From the NCBI GenBank assembly GCA_021775195.1, contig JAJFIG010000494.1, forward strand, positions 1-8,936: a DNA stretch of 8,936 bases. The letters are read 5' to 3'. A model generated the notes under the pieces. That model did not search any database and was not told the DNA's origin. It saw nothing but the letters and a program-made list of their open reading frames with translations. Below are positions 1,541 to 8,742 of the stretch, piece by piece; position 1 is the stretch's first letter, and each line of letters starts with the position of its first letter. The DNA is from Rhodospirillales bacterium. Its GTDB lineage: Bacteria; Pseudomonadota; Alphaproteobacteria; Rhodospirillales; 2-02-FULL-58-16. The position numbers were made by a program, and so were the translations under genes.

Positions 1541-3163
1541 ATGAGATCGACAAGGCAATTTTTCCAGCCGGCGCTGACGCGGACTCTCGTCTCCATGCTG
1601 CTGTTCGTGGCGTTGAGCGCGGCGGCCCCGCCAACCAACACCCCCCATGGTGTCGTCGCCGGGGTCCGGGACGGGACCGCGATCGTCGTCCTCCGCGGCC
1701 CCGTGGCGCCCCGGCCCGGTGATCGGGTCCGCCAGGGGCAGCCGGGTCCAACCGACCCGCCCTTCGGAATCACGGTGTCCATCGCCGGCAATCAGGTCAC
1801 CGTACGCCAAAGCGACCCGGCGCGTCCTCTGGGCGCCGACCGCGAAGCCTTTTTCGAGACCGCGGCCCCGGCACCCCGCCTCGACCGCCACCTCGGGAAC
1901 CCCGAACCCGTCCGCTTTCCCCTGCCGGCGGCTCTCGGCACCGAGCAGGACCTGATCCGCGCCGCCACCAGCGGCGATGCGGCAACCGCCCGCATCGCCA
2001 TGGGCCGGCCGATCAACGTCGACGCCCTCGGCAGCCGCGGCGGCTGGCCCCTGGCCATCGCCGCCCAGCGCCGCCACATCGACATCGTCCGCGACCTGCT
2101 CGACCATCACGCCGATCCCAACCTCATCGACCGCAAGACCGGGCTCACCGCCCTCAAGATCGCCGCCAGCTGGGGCCGGGCCGGGGTCGCCCGCCTGCTC
2201 CTCGGCCACGGCGCCGCGGTCGACTACGCCGGTCCCCCGGGCGAGCCCTGGAACAAGGCATGGACGCCCCTCCATCACGCCGCCTCCGGCGACCACATGG
2301 AGACCGTGGAGGTCCTGCTAACCGTTGACGCCCGCGTTGATGGCGTTGACGGCGAGGGCGCGACGCCCCTGATGCGCGCCGCCGAGAACGGCGCCTTCCG
2401 CGCCGCCCGGCGCCTGCTCGCCAAGGGCGCCGATGTCGGCCACCGGTCCCGCTCCGGCGTCACCCCGCTGATGCTTGCCGCCACCGCCGACAGCCTGGCG
2501 ACCCTGGGCCTGCTGATCAAAAAGGGCGCCGGGATCGACGCCCGCATCCCCGAGGGCAGCGTCCTGCCCCGGCGCCTGTGGGGGGCGACGGCGCTGATGT
2601 TCGCCGCCGAGCGCGGACGCCACGCCGACGAGGTCGCCTTCCTCATCCTCGCCGGGGCGGAACCCGACCTCCGGTCCCGGGACGGCGAAACCGCCTACGA
2701 TTTCACCGCCCGCGCCCCCGACACCTGGGCCCGGGAGATCCTCGCCCCGTCCGTCAACCCCATTGCCGCGGCGTGGCACACGATGAAGGTCCGGGCCGGC
2801 TTCGATGCCTACAATGGCGATCCCCAGGACCTGCGCGCCATCCTCGGCCTCGGCATCCCGGCGAACCTGATCACCGATACCGGGCGCACCCTGCTCGGCC
2901 TCGCCACCGCCGCCGGCAACCGGGCGGCGATGGCGGTACTCCAGGACATGGGGGCCAACCCCAACCTCGCCAACAGGGCCGGCGACACCCCGCTCCACAT
3001 CGCCGCCGCCGCCGGCCACCTCGAGGCCTTCGTCCAGCTCCTCGCCGATGGCGGCGATCCGGACCTGAGAAACGGCTCCGGGCTCCTCCCCCGCCAACTG
3101 GTGCCGCCCTCCCGGCGCCCCGCCTTCATCACCGCCCTGGAAAAGGCGGCCAAGGGGTTATGA
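1541..3163 (+). CDS. Secreted/periplasmic ankyrin-repeat protein
   Basis: This 540-residue protein has a signal peptide at about 1-29: basic RSTRQ, a hydrophobic run LVSMLLFVALS, then an AAA-type cut. A beta-rich region at about 36-107 holds two similar strand-turn units (GVVAGVRDGTAIVVL and GITVSIAGNQVTVRQ) with a PGDRV turn. Ankyrin repeats fill most of the rest. Clear units begin near 167, 201, 240 (WTPLHHAASGDHMETVEVLL), 273 (GATPLMRAAENG), 306 (GVTPLMLAA) and 348. The stretch at about 390-445 is degenerate, and two good units follow near 449 and 481 (GDTPLHIAAAAGHLEAFVQLL). Ankyrin repeats bind other proteins and have no catalytic role. The ATG has only a poor ribosome site. The protein should act outside the cytoplasm, unlike the divergent Sel1 protein. 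Its partner is unknown. Confidence 0.88.
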   Translation: MRSTRQFFQPALTRTLVSMLLFVALSAAAPPTNTPHGVVAGVRDGTAIVVLRGPVAPRPGDRVRQGQPGPTDPPFGITVSIAGNQVTVRQSDPARPLGADREAFFETAAPAPRLDRHLGNPEPVRFPLPAALGTEQDLIRAATSGDAATARIAMGRPINVDALGSRGGWPLAIAAQRRHIDIVRDLLDHHADPNLIDRKTGLTALKIAASWGRAGVARLLLGHGAAVDYAGPPGEPWNKAWTPLHHAASGDHMETVEVLLTVDARVDGVDGEGATPLMRAAENGAFRAARRLLAKGADVGHRSRSGVTPLMLAATADSLATLGLLIKKGAGIDARIPEGSVLPRRLWGATALMFAAERGRHADEVAFLILAGAEPDLRSRDGETAYDFTARAPDTWAREILAPSVNPIAAAWHTMKVRAGFDAYNGDPQDLRAILGLGIPANLITDTGRTLLGLATAAGNRAAMAVLQDMGANPNLANRAGDTPLHIAAAAGHLEAFVQLLADGGDPDLRNGSGLLPRQLVPPSRRPAFITALEKAAKGL

Positions 3164-3183
3164 CGGCGGCGCCCCTCCGCCCC

Positions 3184-3200
3184 TGTCGGAATTCCTTACA
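3184..3200 (+). promoter_or_regulatory. Upstream activator site 1 (TGT-N11-ACA)
   Basis: The sequence is TGTCGGAATTCCTTACA, followed by CC. It is the first of three near-identical 17-bp elements. The outer TGT/ACA form an inverted pair, as in many sites for NtrC-family enhancer-binding proteins. Its centre lies about 204 bases upstream of the start site predicted from the sigma-54 promoter. Confidence 0.7.
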
Positions 3201-3246
3201 CCCTGATTGGCGGAAAACCTGGAATCGTTTCAGTATTCGCCACAGG

Positions 3247-3263
3247 TGTCGGAAATCTTTACA
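3247..3263 (+). promoter_or_regulatory. Upstream activator site 2 (TGT-N11-ACA)
   Basis: The sequence is TGTCGGAAATCTTTACA, also followed by CC. It begins 63 bp after site 1, close to six helical turns, so both would face the same side of the DNA. Its centre is about 141 bases upstream of the predicted start site. Confidence 0.7.
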
Positions 3264-3290
3264 CCTTTTTTGAGAACGAACCGGGAATTG

Positions 3291-3307
3291 TGTCGGATTT
3301 CTTTACA
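3291..3307 (+). promoter_or_regulatory. Upstream activator site 3 (TGT-N11-ACA)
   Basis: The sequence is TGTCGGATTTCTTTACA. It begins 44 bp after site 2, a little over four helical turns. Its centre is about 97 bases upstream of the predicted start, within the usual range for sigma-54 activator sites. Confidence 0.7.
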
Positions 3308-3368
3308 GGTCCGGTGGCGGCCCGAATTCGGCCCCGCCCAAGCCCTTGTAATTGAACGATACCCAAAC

Positions 3369-3386
3369 TTGGCACGGTTCTTGCTT
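3369..3386 (+). promoter_or_regulatory. Sigma-54 (RpoN) -24/-12 promoter
   Basis: TTGGCACGGTTCTTGCTT matches the RpoN consensus TGGCAC-N5-TTGCW exactly. The invariant GG (3371-3372) and GC (3383-3384) are separated by the required ten bases. Transcription should begin near 3396. Such promoters need an ATP-driven enhancer-binding protein, for which the three upstream repeats are the natural sites. Confidence 0.85.
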
Positions 3387-3517
3387 GGATTTCTGCTCGT
3401 GCCGAAGAACCGGCAGCCGCGCCTCGACTCGGGGGGAAACCGAAATTTTGAGGCATCGAAGCAGCCGGCGGTGGCGCCCGGGCGGCGATGATGTCGCCCG
3501 AATGTCGAAACGCAAGT

Positions 3518-3522
3518 GAGGT
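3518..3522 (+). promoter_or_regulatory. Ribosome binding site fixing the PEP-CTERM start
   Basis: GAGGT sits ten bases before the ATG at 3533 in an otherwise A-rich stretch. It supports 3533 over the in-frame ATGs at 3488 and 3491, which have no comparable site and would put a polar extension before the signal peptide. Confidence 0.7.
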
Positions 3523-3532
3523 AATTAAGAAA

Positions 3533-4225
3533 ATGAACTTCTGGAGTCGTAAATTTCTACCCCTGTCGGTCCTGCTCCTATCAATGAGCGCCGGACAGGC
3601 ATTCGCCGGCGTCGTTCTTTCCCCGAACGCCGTCATCAACAATTCCCTGGGCGAGTTCAATGCCGGGCTCGGGGTCAACAACCTGCTCGATCAGTCCGGG
3701 CTGTCGGCACCCTACGTCAGCGGGGTTACCGATTTCACCGCCTATACCGGCGCCGGCCCGACCCACGCCGGTAACGCCGATCCGGGGGGCATCCCCTTCG
3801 CTAGCCCCAGTGGCGTCACGTCCGGCATCATCGATTTCGACCTGGGGGCGGTCTTCAACCTCAGCCACTTCATCCTTTGGGGTGATGACACCCTGGGCAG
3901 CGGTGACGGAACACCCAGGAATTTCTCCCTCGCCGGTGCGCTGGTTTCGGACTTTTCCTCATCCACGTCCCTGGGCGGTTTCACCAGCGCCGCCACCACC
4001 GGCGCGCCGATCCCGGGACAGGTCTTTTCCTTCGCCCCGACCATGGCACGGTTCGTCCGCTTCCAGATCAGCAACGTCCACGGCTCGCCGCCCAACGTCA
4101 ACATCGGCGAGGTCGCCTTCGGCGATACCACCGTGGCCACGACCGTTCCCGAACCGGGGACACTTACGGTCCTCGGTCTCGGCCTCGCCGGTCTCGGTGT
4201 GATACGCCGCCGCAAGCGCGCCTGA
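3533..4225 (+). CDS. PEP-CTERM sorted protein with discoidin-like domain
   Basis: This 230-residue exported protein has a signal peptide at 1-25 (MNFWSRK, a hydrophobic LPLSVLLLSMS core, cut after AFA-25). The C-terminus carries the full exosortase signal: VPEP at 205-208, a hydrophobic segment at about 210-224 rich in Gly and Leu, and RRRKR at 225-229. In this family the motif is recognised by an inner-membrane exosortase that removes the tail and releases the protein to the surface or extracellular polymer. The middle (about 30-197) looks like a galactose-binding/F5-8C (discoidin-like) beta sandwich: IIDFDLGAVFNLSHFILWG near 99-117 and ARFVRFQISN at 172-181, then NIGEVAFG at 190-197. A carbohydrate-binding role in the extracellular matrix is inferred. 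No exosortase or polysaccharide gene lies in the window, so sorting would act in trans. It appears monocistronic under sigma-54 control. Confidence 0.9.
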   Translation: MNFWSRKFLPLSVLLLSMSAGQAFAGVVLSPNAVINNSLGEFNAGLGVNNLLDQSGLSAPYVSGVTDFTAYTGAGPTHAGNADPGGIPFASPSGVTSGIIDFDLGAVFNLSHFILWGDDTLGSGDGTPRNFSLAGALVSDFSSSTSLGGFTSAATTGAPIPGQVFSFAPTMARFVRFQISNVHGSPPNVNIGEVAFGDTTVATTVPEPGTLTVLGLGLAGLGVIRRRKRA

Positions 4226-4242
4226 CGCCATCCGGACACGAC

Positions 4243-4279
4243 AAAGGCCCCGACGGCGGTGCCGTCGGGGCCTTTTGTT
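4243..4279. terminator. Strong bidirectional intrinsic terminator
   Basis: A perfect 15-bp stem, 4243-4257 with 4261-4275, has a 3-base loop (GGT) and a GC-rich core. On the plus strand it ends in TTTTGTTT. On the minus strand its AAA arm gives a short T run, so it can also stop the phasin transcript. It sits 17 bp after the PEP-CTERM stop and 36 bp beyond the phasin stop, shared by the two convergent genes. Confidence 0.92.
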
Positions 4280-4311
4280 TGTGCCCGGCTCTTGGCGCCG
4301 GTGACGCCTGT

Positions 4312-4803
4312 TCAGGCGGCCTGGAACTGCTGCGCCTTCTTCAGGTTCGCGGCAACGGTAGCCTGGACCGGCTTGAGAACGTCCTTGGCGACCGTCTGCG
4401 TCACCGTGGCCAGCTCCTTACCGAACGCCGCCGTCTGCTCCTGGGCGGCCTTGACCAGGCCGGCCTGGACCGTCAGCGCGTCCTTGGGATTGTCCACCGC
4501 CATCAGCGTCTCGACGTTGGCGGCTTGGCCTTCGAGGGCGACCGTGACCTGAGACGTGGCCAGCTCGGCGATCTTGGTCATGCCGTCGATGGTGGCCTTT
4601 GCGACGGCGACGCCGGCGTCCATGTTGGCGCGGTGGGTCGCGGTGACCAGGTCAAGATTGGCGACCGCGGCCTTGCGGGCCTTGGCGGCCTCGACTTCGG
4701 CGACGGCGGTGAATTTCTCGTTGTTCTCCTTCACCGCGGCGAGGGCGTCGGTGACGGCGGTGCGGACAAGGTTGAGGGGATCATTGAGATTTATGTTGGT
4801 CAT
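4312..4803 (-). CDS. Phasin family protein (PHA granule-associated)
   Basis: This 163-residue protein is Ala/Lys/Glu/Val-rich, almost wholly helical, and has no Cys or Trp. It fits the Phasin_2 / PhaP type. Phasins coat polyhydroxyalkanoate granules, control their size and number, and block non-specific protein binding. Typical features are the helical N-terminal half (about 10-100) and the conserved block at about 106-160: NPKDALTVQAGLVKAAQEQ, then DVLKPVQATVAANLKKA with its Pro before the last helix. The length is normal for the family. The ATG at 4803 has an AAGGAAA ribosome site (rc of about 4813-4819). The upstream region carries a good sigma-70-like promoter and two PhaR-type boxes, which supports the assignment independently. 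The synthase and regulator genes are not in the window. The gene converges on the PEP-CTERM gene. Confidence 0.88.
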   Translation of the reverse strand: MTNINLNDPLNLVRTAVTDALAAVKENNEKFTAVAEVEAAKARKAAVANLDLVTATHRANMDAGVAVAKATIDGMTKIAELATSQVTVALEGQAANVETLMAVDNPKDALTVQAGLVKAAQEQTAAFGKELATVTQTVAKDVLKPVQATVAANLKKAQQFQAA

Positions 4804-6280: not shown

Positions 6281-7603
6281 ATGGACGACATCTTCCATCC
6301 CGATTTCACCACCGACCCCTATTGGTGGGAGGCCGCCGCCCCGACCACCGAGGGCTCCCAGCCGCCTCCCGAGGAAACCGACGTCGCCATCGTCGGCAGC
6401 GGCTACACGGGGCTGACGGCGGCCATTGAGCTTGCCGACCGGGGGCACCGGGTCACCGTCCTCGAGGCCCGTGACTTCGGTTATGGCGCCAGCACCCGCA
6501 ACGGCGGCCACGCCAGCAGCGGCTTCAATCTCGGCAAGGCATCGTCGAGCGCCAAACCCTCGCCCCTCGTCAAGCACCTCGGCCTCGAGCACTACAACCG
6601 CCTTCTCGGCGAGTCCGTCGACTCCCTTCTCGAGCTCGAGGCGGTGATCGAACGCGAGGCCATCGACTGCGACTACCAGCGCAGCGGCCGTTTCGCCGTC
6701 GCCTACACCCCCACCCACTTCAAGCAGCTTGTGAACAAGATGACGGCCCTCGACCCCGACGGGTCCGGCGGCTACCGGCTCGTCCCCCGCGAGCGCCAGC
6801 GGGACGAGATCGGCTCCGACTTCTACCACGGCGGCATCGTCGTCGAGCGTTCCGGCCGGCTCCATCCGGCCCTCTATCATCGCGGCCTTCTGCACGCCTG
6901 CCAACGCCGCGGCGTGAGCCTCTCGGCACGGACCCCGGTCACCGCCATCGCCGCCGACGGCACCGGGTTCCGGGTCAGGACCCCAACCGCCGAGCTTCGC
7001 GCCAATGAGGTCCTGCTCGCCACCAACGCCTATTCCCAGGAACCGAGCCCGTGGCTGCGCCGCCGGGTGATCCCGCTCGCAAGCTGCATGATCGCCACCG
7101 AGGAACTGGACCCCGAGGTCATCCGCCGCCTCAACCCCAACCGCCGGACCATCAACGACACCAAGCGCATCCTCAGCTATTTCCGCATTTCGCCGGACGG
7201 CAAGCGGCTGCTCTACGGCGGCCGCGAGAGCTTCTTTACAACGGACCCGCGCCAGTCGGGCCGCCTTCTCTACGCCCGCATGACCTCCGTCTATCCCCAG
7301 CTTGCCGGGGTCCGCATCACCCATTCATGGTCGGGCCTGGTCGCCATGTCCTTCGACCACCTGCCCCACATGGGCACCCACGACGGCATTCACTACTGTG
7401 CCGGCTGCAACGGCAGCGGCGTCGCCATGATGTCCTATCTCGGGCGCCGGGTGGGCCGCAAGATCGCCGGCGACAGCACCCCCAGCGCCTACGACGGCCT
7501 CCCCTTCCCGACCCGCCCCACCTACACCGGCACCCCGTGGTTCCTGCCCGCCGTCGGCGGCTACTACCGGGCCATGGACCGCCTCGACCGCTGGCGCACC
7601 TGA
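6281..7603 (+). CDS. FAD-dependent oxidoreductase, PuuB/OrdL (DAO) type
   Basis: This 440-residue flavoprotein of the D-amino acid oxidase (DAO) superfamily resembles gamma-glutamylputrescine oxidase. An extension of about 34 residues with YWWEAAAP precedes the dinucleotide fold at about 34-62 (VAIVGSGYTGLTAA; Gly39, Gly41, Gly44, with Glu62 for the ribose). Next comes GASTRNGG at 69-76, the RNGG signature of PuuB/OrdL proteins. SWSGLVAMSFDHLPHMG and then YCAGCNGSGV near the C-terminus form the second flavin-binding part. Members oxidise primary or secondary amines and release H2O2 or pass electrons onward; the substrate here is unknown. The ATG follows the ArgE-like stop by 9 bp, with an AGGGAC ribosome site overlapping that stop, so the two are translationally linked. 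The C-terminal YYRAMDRLDRW coding sequence recurs 1083 bp downstream as the end of a lost paralogue. Confidence 0.9.
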   Translation: MDDIFHPDFTTDPYWWEAAAPTTEGSQPPPEETDVAIVGSGYTGLTAAIELADRGHRVTVLEARDFGYGASTRNGGHASSGFNLGKASSSAKPSPLVKHLGLEHYNRLLGESVDSLLELEAVIEREAIDCDYQRSGRFAVAYTPTHFKQLVNKMTALDPDGSGGYRLVPRERQRDEIGSDFYHGGIVVERSGRLHPALYHRGLLHACQRRGVSLSARTPVTAIAADGTGFRVRTPTAELRANEVLLATNAYSQEPSPWLRRRVIPLASCMIATEELDPEVIRRLNPNRRTINDTKRILSYFRISPDGKRLLYGGRESFFTTDPRQSGRLLYARMTSVYPQLAGVRITHSWSGLVAMSFDHLPHMGTHDGIHYCAGCNGSGVAMMSYLGRRVGRKIAGDSTPSAYDGLPFPTRPTYTGTPWFLPAVGGYYRAMDRLDRWRT

Positions 7604-7608
7604 CGGCG
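7557..7608 (+). repeat. 3' end of the FAD oxidase gene, copy 1 of a direct repeat
   Basis: The last 47 bases of the gene plus five beyond match 8640-8691 at 48 of 52 positions by direct alignment, at a constant offset of 1083 bp. The four differences are one in the Arg codon and three just before the stop. Copy 1 belongs to an intact gene. Confidence 0.8.
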
Positions 7609-7870
7609 TCCCCGACCTGGGGTGCCAACACCAAAAACGTGTATCTCTTCCGGCGCCACGCCCTAAACGATATACTATTCCATCGCGACGCCCCTTCATC
7701 GGCCCGTTGGGGCTGATGAAAACGCGCCTCGCCCGGCAACCGCGAAAGCCCAAACCCGGCCCCATGGGAATGCCGGGCAGCGACGAAAAGGAATTACATA
7801 CTGTCCCCAGAATTTCGTGAAAGTACCATGGCAACCGCATCTTGATGAGCTTCCAAGGGGTTATTGAAAA
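7604..7870 (+). other. Intergenic stretch with two inverted repeats
   Basis: No gene is credible in these 267 bp. One hairpin pairs 7696-7705 with 7710-7719 (TCATCGGCCC, loop GTTG, GGGCTGATGA; one G-U). A second inverted repeat, GCCCGGCA (7731-7738) with TGCCGGGC (7771-7778), encloses a 32-base loop. Neither has a T run, so I do not call them terminators. They may be the remains of a repeat element or a structured RNA. From about 7791 the composition turns AT-rich and the sequence belongs to the island that follows. An AGGGG ribosome site (7856-7860) precedes the next gene. Confidence 0.45.
7791..7808 (+). repeat. Left boundary repeat of the AT-rich island
   Basis: GAATTACATACTGTCCCC matches in inverse orientation the repeat at 8365-8384: the two share GGGGACA and an AATT end, with a less conserved middle. 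TGTCCCC-type repeats of this appearance often flank or accompany Y1 (REP-associated/IS200-like) transposase elements; that link is from memory of the pattern, not shown here. Confidence 0.5.
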
Positions 7871-8344
7871 ATGCGTGACGAAGATTTACTCGCGCACTTT
7901 CGCGCGATGAAATGTAATGATCAGGACACCACTAATTTTGATTTTTTTGACTTCTTGCATGCACATGGATCCCCGCTTGATGCGCTGTTCTATTCCCGAC
8001 TGTTCTGGCCAGAGTTCGTCGATATCAACGGAATGGTTTTTTTGAAGGAGACGATCGAAGATGACGATGATAAAGATCGTTTGGATGAGGCGTTAAAGCA
8101 CTATGATGGTGATAAAACCAAAACTGAGCAGTCATTTAATACAACCGAGATACCTTTTCTATTTGGCAAAAACTCAGAAGAAATAACTGACGAAGAAGAC
8201 TTAGCACTTGCTGAGCGACTGGCGGAAATGTGGCAATATAAATTACAAAATATTTATCCAAATCGCAGATTTATTGTACAAATATTGTCAGAGGAAGAGA
8301 CGGGTGACGCAATTGCGGTTAGTTTCTATACGGAAAGAGTTTGA
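7871..8344 (+). CDS. AT-rich orphan gene, acidic protein of unknown function
   Basis: This 157-residue acidic, soluble protein has no signal peptide or membrane segment. I do not recognise a named family. Visible features are a helical start (DLLAHFRAMKC), an aromatic segment at about 22-55 (NFDFFDFLHAHG, then LFYSRLFWPEFVDINGMVF), an Asp-rich linker at about 63-90, and the helix LALAERLAEMWQYKLQNIYP at 111-130. It ends in strand-like NRRFIVQILSEEETGDAIAVSFYTERV. The wide use of A/T-ending codons is unlike every neighbour and points to recent acquisition. A small acidic cytoplasmic protein stranded without partners would suit an orphan immunity protein or antitoxin-like product, but nothing in the sequence proves that. 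The ATG at 7871 has AGGGG ten bases upstream. It is probably a real gene: the frame is intact and codon use is coherent. Confidence 0.75.
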   Translation: MRDEDLLAHFRAMKCNDQDTTNFDFFDFLHAHGSPLDALFYSRLFWPEFVDINGMVFLKETIEDDDDKDRLDEALKHYDGDKTKTEQSFNTTEIPFLFGKNSEEITDEEDLALAERLAEMWQYKLQNIYPNRRFIVQILSEEETGDAIAVSFYTERV

Positions 8345-8413: not shown

Positions 8414-8637
8414 TCACCGAAACGCCTCGACCCTCTCCGGCATGAAGATATCCCTGTGCTCGGCGGCGATGGCGAGGATGAAGCGCTGCAGGCGGCGGAC
8501 GCTGGCGAAGCGCTGCAGTTCCTCGGGCACCAGCAGCCAGTAGGCGCGGACGAAGAAGTGCTCCCGGGTCAGGATCGGCACCAGGCGCTCGTCGTTCCAG
8601 GCCATGAAGTAGGGCGGCACCCCGAAGCCGCCGCCAT
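8414..8637 (-). pseudogene. LysR-type regulator, C-terminal remnant
   Basis: The frame read leftward from about 8637 gives some 74 residues resembling the last quarter of a LysR-type effector-binding domain. It begins DGGGFGVPPYFMAW (the usual GlG(I/V)...P turn), continues NDERLVPILTREHFFVRAYWLLVPEELQ, and ends with the helix SVRRLQRFILAIAAEH and the tail PERVEAFR before TGA at 8414. LysR proteins are about 300 residues, so the helix-turn-helix and most of the sensor domain are gone. The first in-frame start is a GTG at 8620 with nothing to support its use. The right end abuts the remnant of a second FAD oxidase pointing the other way. The intact gene probably controlled the adjacent catabolic genes; it is now almost certainly inactive. 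Confidence 0.7.
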
Positions 8638-8686
8638 CAGCGGCTACTACCGCGCCATGGACCGCCTCGACCGCTGGCGTAGTTGA
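8632..8686 (+). pseudogene. FAD oxidase paralogue, 3' remnant
   Basis: The frame ends SGYYRAMDRLDRWRS then TGA at 8686, against GGYYRAMDRLDRWRT in the intact oxidase. The nucleotide match is 48 of 52 over 8640-8691, and weaker similarity may begin a few bases earlier. Nothing upstream in this frame resembles an oxidase; it is the antisense of the lysR remnant. This is therefore only the tail of a second copy whose first ~420 codons are lost. It is followed after 56 bp by the GMC oxidoreductase, with which the full gene probably formed an operon. Confidence 0.75.
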
Positions 8687-8742
8687 CGGCGGCCCTTACG
8701 TCGTTTACCCGTTGGTCACCCCAACCCGTGGATGACCGCGCC

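Follow-up and report, generated by a model that had tools for sequence, protein, structure and literature searches.

A probable compact PrsR/sigma-54 enhancer with a single predicted IHF site in front of a PEP-CTERM gene of a Rhodospirillales bacterium

Three closely spaced copies of a putative activator site lie in front of a sigma-54 promoter and a PEP-CTERM gene in the DNA of a Rhodospirillales bacterium, which raises the question whether so crowded an array is a working enhancer or the remains of one. The PEP-CTERM/PrsR regulon was predicted as early as 2006, yet the logic of its promoters has been little tested. Haft et al. (2006; PMC1569441) reported a 17-nt motif 5' of 99 of 167 proteobacterial PEP-CTERM genes, which ends in TTTACA, is sometimes repeated, and is separated in its last copy (motif 1) by a spacer of 62.8 nt (SD 10.6) from a sigma-54 motif (motif 2). 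PrsR was proposed as the activator in that work, together with PrsK and PrsT. In a bacterium of the activated-sludge type, floc formation involves a PEP-CTERM gene that depends on RpoN (PMC9850573). Here, the array was compared with all similar arrays of the same genome and with promoters of other genomes. The whole stretch of DNA that was analysed, 8,936 nucleotides in length, is referred to as the window.

The features of the array are compiled in Table 1. The initial annotation had described three tandem boxes of the form TGTCGG-N6-TTACA and a consensus RpoN promoter, and both descriptions were confirmed. The box pattern was found three times in the whole window, always exact and on the forward strand, and never in 200 dinucleotide shuffles; TGGCAC-N5-TTGCW was found once in the window and not in the shuffles. 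The start-to-start spacings of 63 and 44 bp and the box centres at -204, -141 and -97 were recomputed from the predicted start with the same result. The last six letters are TTTACA in boxes 2 and 3 and CTTACA in box 1. Box 3 is separated from the TGG of the sigma-54 site by 62 nt, the distance usual in this genome. No sigma-70-type promoter was matched within positions 3150-4350. The PEP-CTERM gene, for which an alternative in-frame ATG exists at 3488, was recognised by PF07589 with 28.9 bits (cut-off 20.7) and by TIGR02595 with 22 bits (cut-off 16). The hairpin behind it is a single terminator-like site, and shuffles gave an average of 1.7 in the same scan. On the upstream side, the stop codon of an ankyrin-repeat gene lies at 3163 and the array starts 20 bases further on; from this stop to the ATG at 3533 (3164-3532) no recognisable gene was seen, mechanical frames only.

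Table 1. Predicted elements of the array and the gene behind it (positions in the window)
Feature	Position	Strand	Remark
Box 1 (distal), predicted PrsR site, TGTCGGAATTCCTTACA	3184..3200	+	exact match to TGTCGG-N6-TTACA
Box 2, predicted PrsR site, TGTCGGAAATCTTTACA	3247..3263	+	exact match to TGTCGG-N6-TTACA
Box 3 (promoter-proximal), predicted PrsR site, TGTCGGATTTCTTTACA	3291..3307	+	exact match to TGTCGG-N6-TTACA
IHF-like element CAAGCCCTTGTAA in the box 3/promoter spacer	3339..3351	+	8/9 relaxed consensus, 7/9 strict consensus
Sigma-54 promoter TGGCACGGTTCTTGCT, predicted start ~3396	3370..3385	+	exact consensus
PEP-CTERM protein gene, 230 aa	3533..4225	+	PF07589 and TIGR02595 matches
Terminator-like hairpin 3' of the PEP-CTERM gene	4243..4275	+	15-pair stem, 11 G-C pairs

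In order to place the array in its regulon, the box consensus was located in the whole genome with up to three mismatches, which gave 110 matches, compared with 3 for the reversed pattern. The best 100 of these 110 matches, the other ten having three mismatches, were grouped into 34 arrays including the window. No arrays were made from three-mismatch matches standing alone (seven contigs) or from the solitary reverse box of contig C506. Four boxes with three or four mismatches were retained inside arrays (C9, C59, C195, C312) and seven four-mismatch matches were excluded, some of them 24-34 bp from a retained box (C195, C234, C411). Among the 33 other arrays, six consist of two boxes and 27 of three. 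A first spacing of 105-110 bp was measured in 25 of these 27, and a last spacing of 108-114 bp in 30 of the 33. Typical of them are thus spacings close to 109 and 112 and a promoter 62-64 nt away, a gap present in 28 of the 33 arrays with a well-scored promoter, here with the window included. In the genome, 26 PEP-CTERM matches exceed the Pfam cut-off, and 24 of these follow an array on the same strand at no more than 2.5 kb, including one as the second gene; one further match below the cut-off is placed likewise. Among the ten arrays without such a match, the downstream frame leaves the contig in six, three precede frames with a PEP-like tail as judged by eye, and the array on C538 has no clear gene behind it. 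The gene in the window had been called a lone PEP-CTERM gene, which holds within the window but not in the genome. The expectation that the motif would lead to the rest of the regulon was supported for PEP-CTERM genes, whose predicted association with the arrays is strong; the window itself turned out to be an atypical member.

The regulators expected of such a system are encoded in the genome. PrsR is represented by a single match above the family cut-off (665 bits; cut-off 502.6), PrsK and PrsT were found above their cut-offs with 727 and 857 bits, and the three genes are consecutive on contig C238 in the order prsK, prsR, prsT. A gene for RpoN is present, and both subunits of IHF (ihfA and ihfB) are encoded, with 144.8 bits for TIGR00988 and 133.4 bits for TIGR00987, above the respective cut-offs. 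Seven more NtrC-type regulators resemble TIGR02915 with 240-405 bits, below the PrsR cut-off. The gene of one NtrC-type regulator (C12:3982-5295; L041) is situated directly 5' of a three-box array with a PEP-CTERM gene. An exosortase gene had also been expected in the regulon, but none was detected by PF09721 or TIGR03109 in the assembly, which is 77.84% complete and consists of 569 contigs.

Alignment of the arrays on their boxes revealed a third element, TAA-N4-TTGAAA, which is near the reverse complement of the IHF consensus, given for E. coli as WATCARxxxxTTR (PMC3897727). This element was missed in the initial annotation, as was the fact that the box motif has been known since 2006 (PMC1569441). 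The IHF-like element was scored as a relaxed nine-position consensus, YAANNNNTTGAWW, and a stricter E. coli-type consensus was scored separately. In the other arrays the best YAANNNNTTGAWW matches are found mostly 25, 26-27 and 31-32 nt after boxes 1, 2 and 3, respectively. Compared with shuffled spacers, z values of 13.2, 8.6 and 15.4 were obtained for the first, second and third spacer (n = 27, 33 and 33), and the controls in the same spacers, namely the opposite orientation and two further patterns, reached z values of at most 4.1. At those offsets, 52 of 93 positions match the relaxed consensus in at least eight of nine letters (shuffled mean 0.3) and 34 of 93 the strict one (shuffled mean 0.2), and the TAA and TTG halves of the element, four apart, are conserved. 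In the window array, the only relaxed-consensus match of at least 8/9 is that at 3339-3351, and the 27-base spacer 5' of box 3 is too short for an IHF-like site at the usual offset. The missing upper sites alone are not striking, because 41 of the 93 positions in the other arrays likewise score below 8/9.

The same elements were then analysed in other genomes. A scan of GTDB, with one genome per species, for a sigma-54 site preceded by two boxes with a spacing of 97-127 bp yielded 48 loci in records titled alpha-, beta-, gamma- or deltaproteobacterial or unplaced, with one Deferribacteres; some of the titles are genus or family names of those proteobacterial groups. Within the class, the two-box pattern was found in 3 of 385 genomes, the window's own included, and in none of the four genomes drawn from the same order. 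From the 48 loci, 38 (one per genome) were taken on. In 37 genomes, the combination of a box and a sigma-54 site gave 131 matches and the reversed pattern none, and 128 regions were analysed, all picked by box and sigma-54 site. A second box above threshold is absent in 43 of these 128 promoters. The gap between box and promoter, allowed to vary from 50 to 80 in the search, falls into classes of 50-55 (n = 13), 59-66 (n = 92) and 70-78 (n = 23), with 56-58 and 67-69 empty, so that the box position varies by about whole helical turns from promoter to promoter. Among the element matches of 8/9, those starting 30-34 nt before the TGG account for 3 of 4, 42 of 51 and 10 of 16 in the three gap classes. 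Where the element is present, the position of the box therefore shifts and the element mostly stays put; the element in the window, which starts 31 nt before the TGG, occupies this favoured position. Anywhere in the spacer, the element is present in 3 of 13, 48 of 92 and 12 of 23 promoters of the three classes, the opposite orientation with at least 8/9 in 4 of 13, 33 of 92 and 12 of 23, and the two control patterns in 1, 15 and 5 and in 0, 12 and 2.

At -30 to -33, the element was found with 8/9 in 53 of 128 promoters, compared with 2 at off-positions. The strict consensus was matched with 8/9 in 39 of 128 promoters (control 1.0). By groups, with the labels taken from the record titles, the element is present at -30 to -33 in 38 of 64 alpha- and 7 of 19 gammaproteobacterial promoters and in 6 of 9 unplaced ones, but is rare in beta- (1 of 11) and deltaproteobacterial (1 of 23) promoters and absent from the 2 of Deferribacteres. 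In the opposite orientation it was observed at -18 to -20, a position chosen after looking, in 24 of 128 promoters, against 2 for the control. Ten of the 24 belong to the 23 promoters from delta-titled records, a group that includes L169-L171 and L182-L184.

A palindrome, TTGCATA-N6-TATGCAA, was noticed 33-34 bp 5' of box 2 in 14 of the 34 arrays of the genome (11-16 of 16 letters), for example in L066, L069 and L067; it is absent from the window. Genome-wide, with up to two mismatches, it occurs at 18 places, 10 of them inside arrays, and the reversed pattern at none. As a general part of the switch the palindrome was rejected, as at least 13 of its 16 letters were matched in only one of the 128 promoters elsewhere, and there at another place.

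The spacing of the boxes in the other genomes follows the DNA helix. Upstream boxes are on the same strand in 87 cases and on the opposite strand in 4 at the same threshold, with spacing peaks near 77, 92, 101, 112, 123, 133 and 143 bp. The 78 spacings at 70-150 bp are best fitted by a period of 10.95 (R 0.52, higher than in any jittered control), and equal weight per genome results in a period of 11.3. Because 44 promoters had been chosen by their spacing, the test was repeated on the other 84, which provide 34 spacings free of this choice with a period of 10.6 (p 0.0007). When each genome contributed a single spacing, 20 draws gave a median p of 0.003 and a highest p of 0.03. Judging from this comb of about 11 bp, activation by PrsR seems to need the boxes on a fixed face of the helix.

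Measured against this comb, the window is an outlier. None of the 87 upstream boxes elsewhere, of which 44 come from promoters chosen at 97-127 bp and 43 are free of spacing choice, lies under 76 bp, and adjacent retained boxes in the 33 other arrays of the genome are always at least 99 bp apart. Box 3, the IHF-like site and the promoter retain the usual layout. The distance from box 1 to box 3 is 107 bp, which falls in an empty trough of the comb, and box 1 may therefore not work with box 3. Only this distance was compared with the comb, because 107 lies inside the observed range; phasing the spacings of the window by extrapolation was dropped, as the fitted period ranges from 10.6 to 11.9 between subsets. 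On straight DNA with 10.5 bp per turn, 44, 63 and 107 bp correspond to 4.2, 6.0 and 10.2 turns, and from these near-whole turns the three boxes would share one face if the DNA between them stays unbent. The reading of 63 bp as six helical turns in the initial annotation is thus correct for unbent DNA, but no other array uses this spacing. A simple collapse of direct repeats in the assembly is an unlikely origin of the spacings, as the flanks of the three boxes differ.

From the order and spacing of these sites, positions 3184-3385 probably constitute a compact PrsR/sigma-54 enhancer of the PEP-CTERM gene that is likely bent by IHF only beside the promoter. In such a switch, PrsK would phosphorylate PrsR, and the phosphorylated PrsR would bind the boxes, oligomerise and contact the sigma-54 polymerase via a loop folded by IHF. 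In the other arrays, more than half of the boxes are followed at a fixed distance by an IHF-like site, which suggests that repeated bends would stack the boxes there. In the window, the predicted bend lies between the nearest box and the promoter, and the lack of an IHF-like site between boxes 63 and 44 bp apart points to a compact version in which neighbouring boxes would meet without the help of IHF and a single bend, the last, would be retained. The upper bends of the enhancer in the window would accordingly have been lost and its boxes set at new spacings. A more general model is put forward tentatively, with doubt slightly outweighing confidence: at PEP-CTERM promoters of alphaproteobacteria and some other proteobacteria, PrsR boxes may alternate with IHF sites at whole turns, IHF may fold several PrsR assemblies onto one sigma-54 polymerase, and the window may be a natural IHF-poor compact design.

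The main rival to the compact enhancer is a half-decayed array, a decayed or partly deleted copy in which boxes 1 and 2 would be leftovers and activity would depend on the promoter, the IHF-like site and box 3 alone. The two spacings are unmatched in the own genome and elsewhere, box 1 is outside the comb, and a deletion is easily imagined where the array begins so shortly after the ankyrin stop. All three boxes are perfect, however, and neglected sites would not last in this state; judging from the promoters elsewhere that have no second box, extra boxes seem dispensable and would be free to decay. On balance, decay is considered unlikely, though it deserves serious attention. The geometry could also be merely inherited, if one promoter cassette had been copied many times and the spacing were a relic. 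Several arrays do share sequence beyond the boxes as judged by eye, and the palindrome before box 2 is what relatives would show, but in other genomes several spacings occur, at steps of about one helical turn, a pattern not expected from one ancestral cassette, and this origin is regarded as improbable.

Two further alternatives concern the proteins and not the layout. The YAANNNNTTGAWW element might be bound by a protein other than IHF, or be an AT-rich stretch with intrinsic curvature: its commonest form has TTGAAA compared with TTGAT in the E. coli consensus, and the strict consensus fits less well in this genome, in the other promoters and in the window. This is nevertheless rather unlikely: the element has a favoured offset from the promoter in all three gap classes, its TAA and TTG halves are conserved, and the genome encodes both subunits of IHF. 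Functional IHF sites with 67-78% identity to the consensus are among those published (PMC3897727). That the boxes are bound by a different NtrC-type regulator of this genome is conceivable from the seven further TIGR02915-like matches, one such regulator gene (C12:3982-5295) standing directly before an array. It is very improbable, however, as the single match that passes the PrsR cut-off adjoins prsK and prsT, and the box shows the same distribution across species as PrsR (Haft et al. 2006; PMC1569441). The compact enhancer activated by PrsR is the preferred interpretation.

Several features of this enhancer agree with known systems. The cis-site of Haft et al. (PMC1569441) and the window have in common the 17-nt box, the spacer of about 63 nt (62 in the window), the sigma-54 site, and a PEP-CTERM gene behind a large intergenic region, with more than 200 nt of non-coding DNA 5' of the gene, in a genome with prsK-prsR-prsT. 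The section of that paper on the cis-site gives neither an IHF site nor a spacing rule between repeats, and the window differs from its description by three boxes at 63 and 44 bp. In Aquincola tertiaricarbonis, the start of pepA was mapped to a sigma-54 site and its transcription depends on RpoN1 (PMC9850573). Like the window, pepA combines a sigma-54 promoter (TGGCAC / CTGCTT) with a PEP-CTERM gene and a predicted upstream enhancer; unlike for the window, neither a multi-box array nor an IHF site is mentioned in the parts of that study dealing with pepA. The orp promoters of D. vulgaris, as far as described in PMC3897727, resemble the window by an IHF site between the activator sites and the sigma-54 promoter. 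They are of a type with one or two candidate IHF sites per promoter, in contrast to the arrays of the genome analysed here, in which up to three boxes alternate with three IHF-like sites. No published account of IHF at PEP-CTERM promoters was found in a literature search that covered few subscription papers. New in the present analysis are the regulon-wide arrays, the IHF-like element, the comb of about 11 bp and the compact layout of the window.

Two observations were made elsewhere in the window. The 65 bases that end the gene of an FAD oxidoreductase (7548-7612) are repeated with 89% identity 1083 bp downstream, at 8631-8695, behind a possible cut-off gene on the other strand as judged by eye, and this repeat may reflect a rearrangement or an assembly join. 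Moreover, the frame 7871-8344 (157 residues), which had no match in Pfam or NCBIfam, has, as judged by eye, a far higher A+T content than the DNA around it and is possibly a recent arrival.

With a rule that relates box, IHF-like site and promoter to helical turns, the PEP-CTERM/PrsR regulon would be easy to find, and the compact array of the window offers a built-in contrast to the usual layout. If the compact array works, adjacent boxes would need no IHF bend between them. If the reading of the arrays as composite enhancers is true, bent and straight versions of one enhancer would exist in a single genome, where they could be compared directly.
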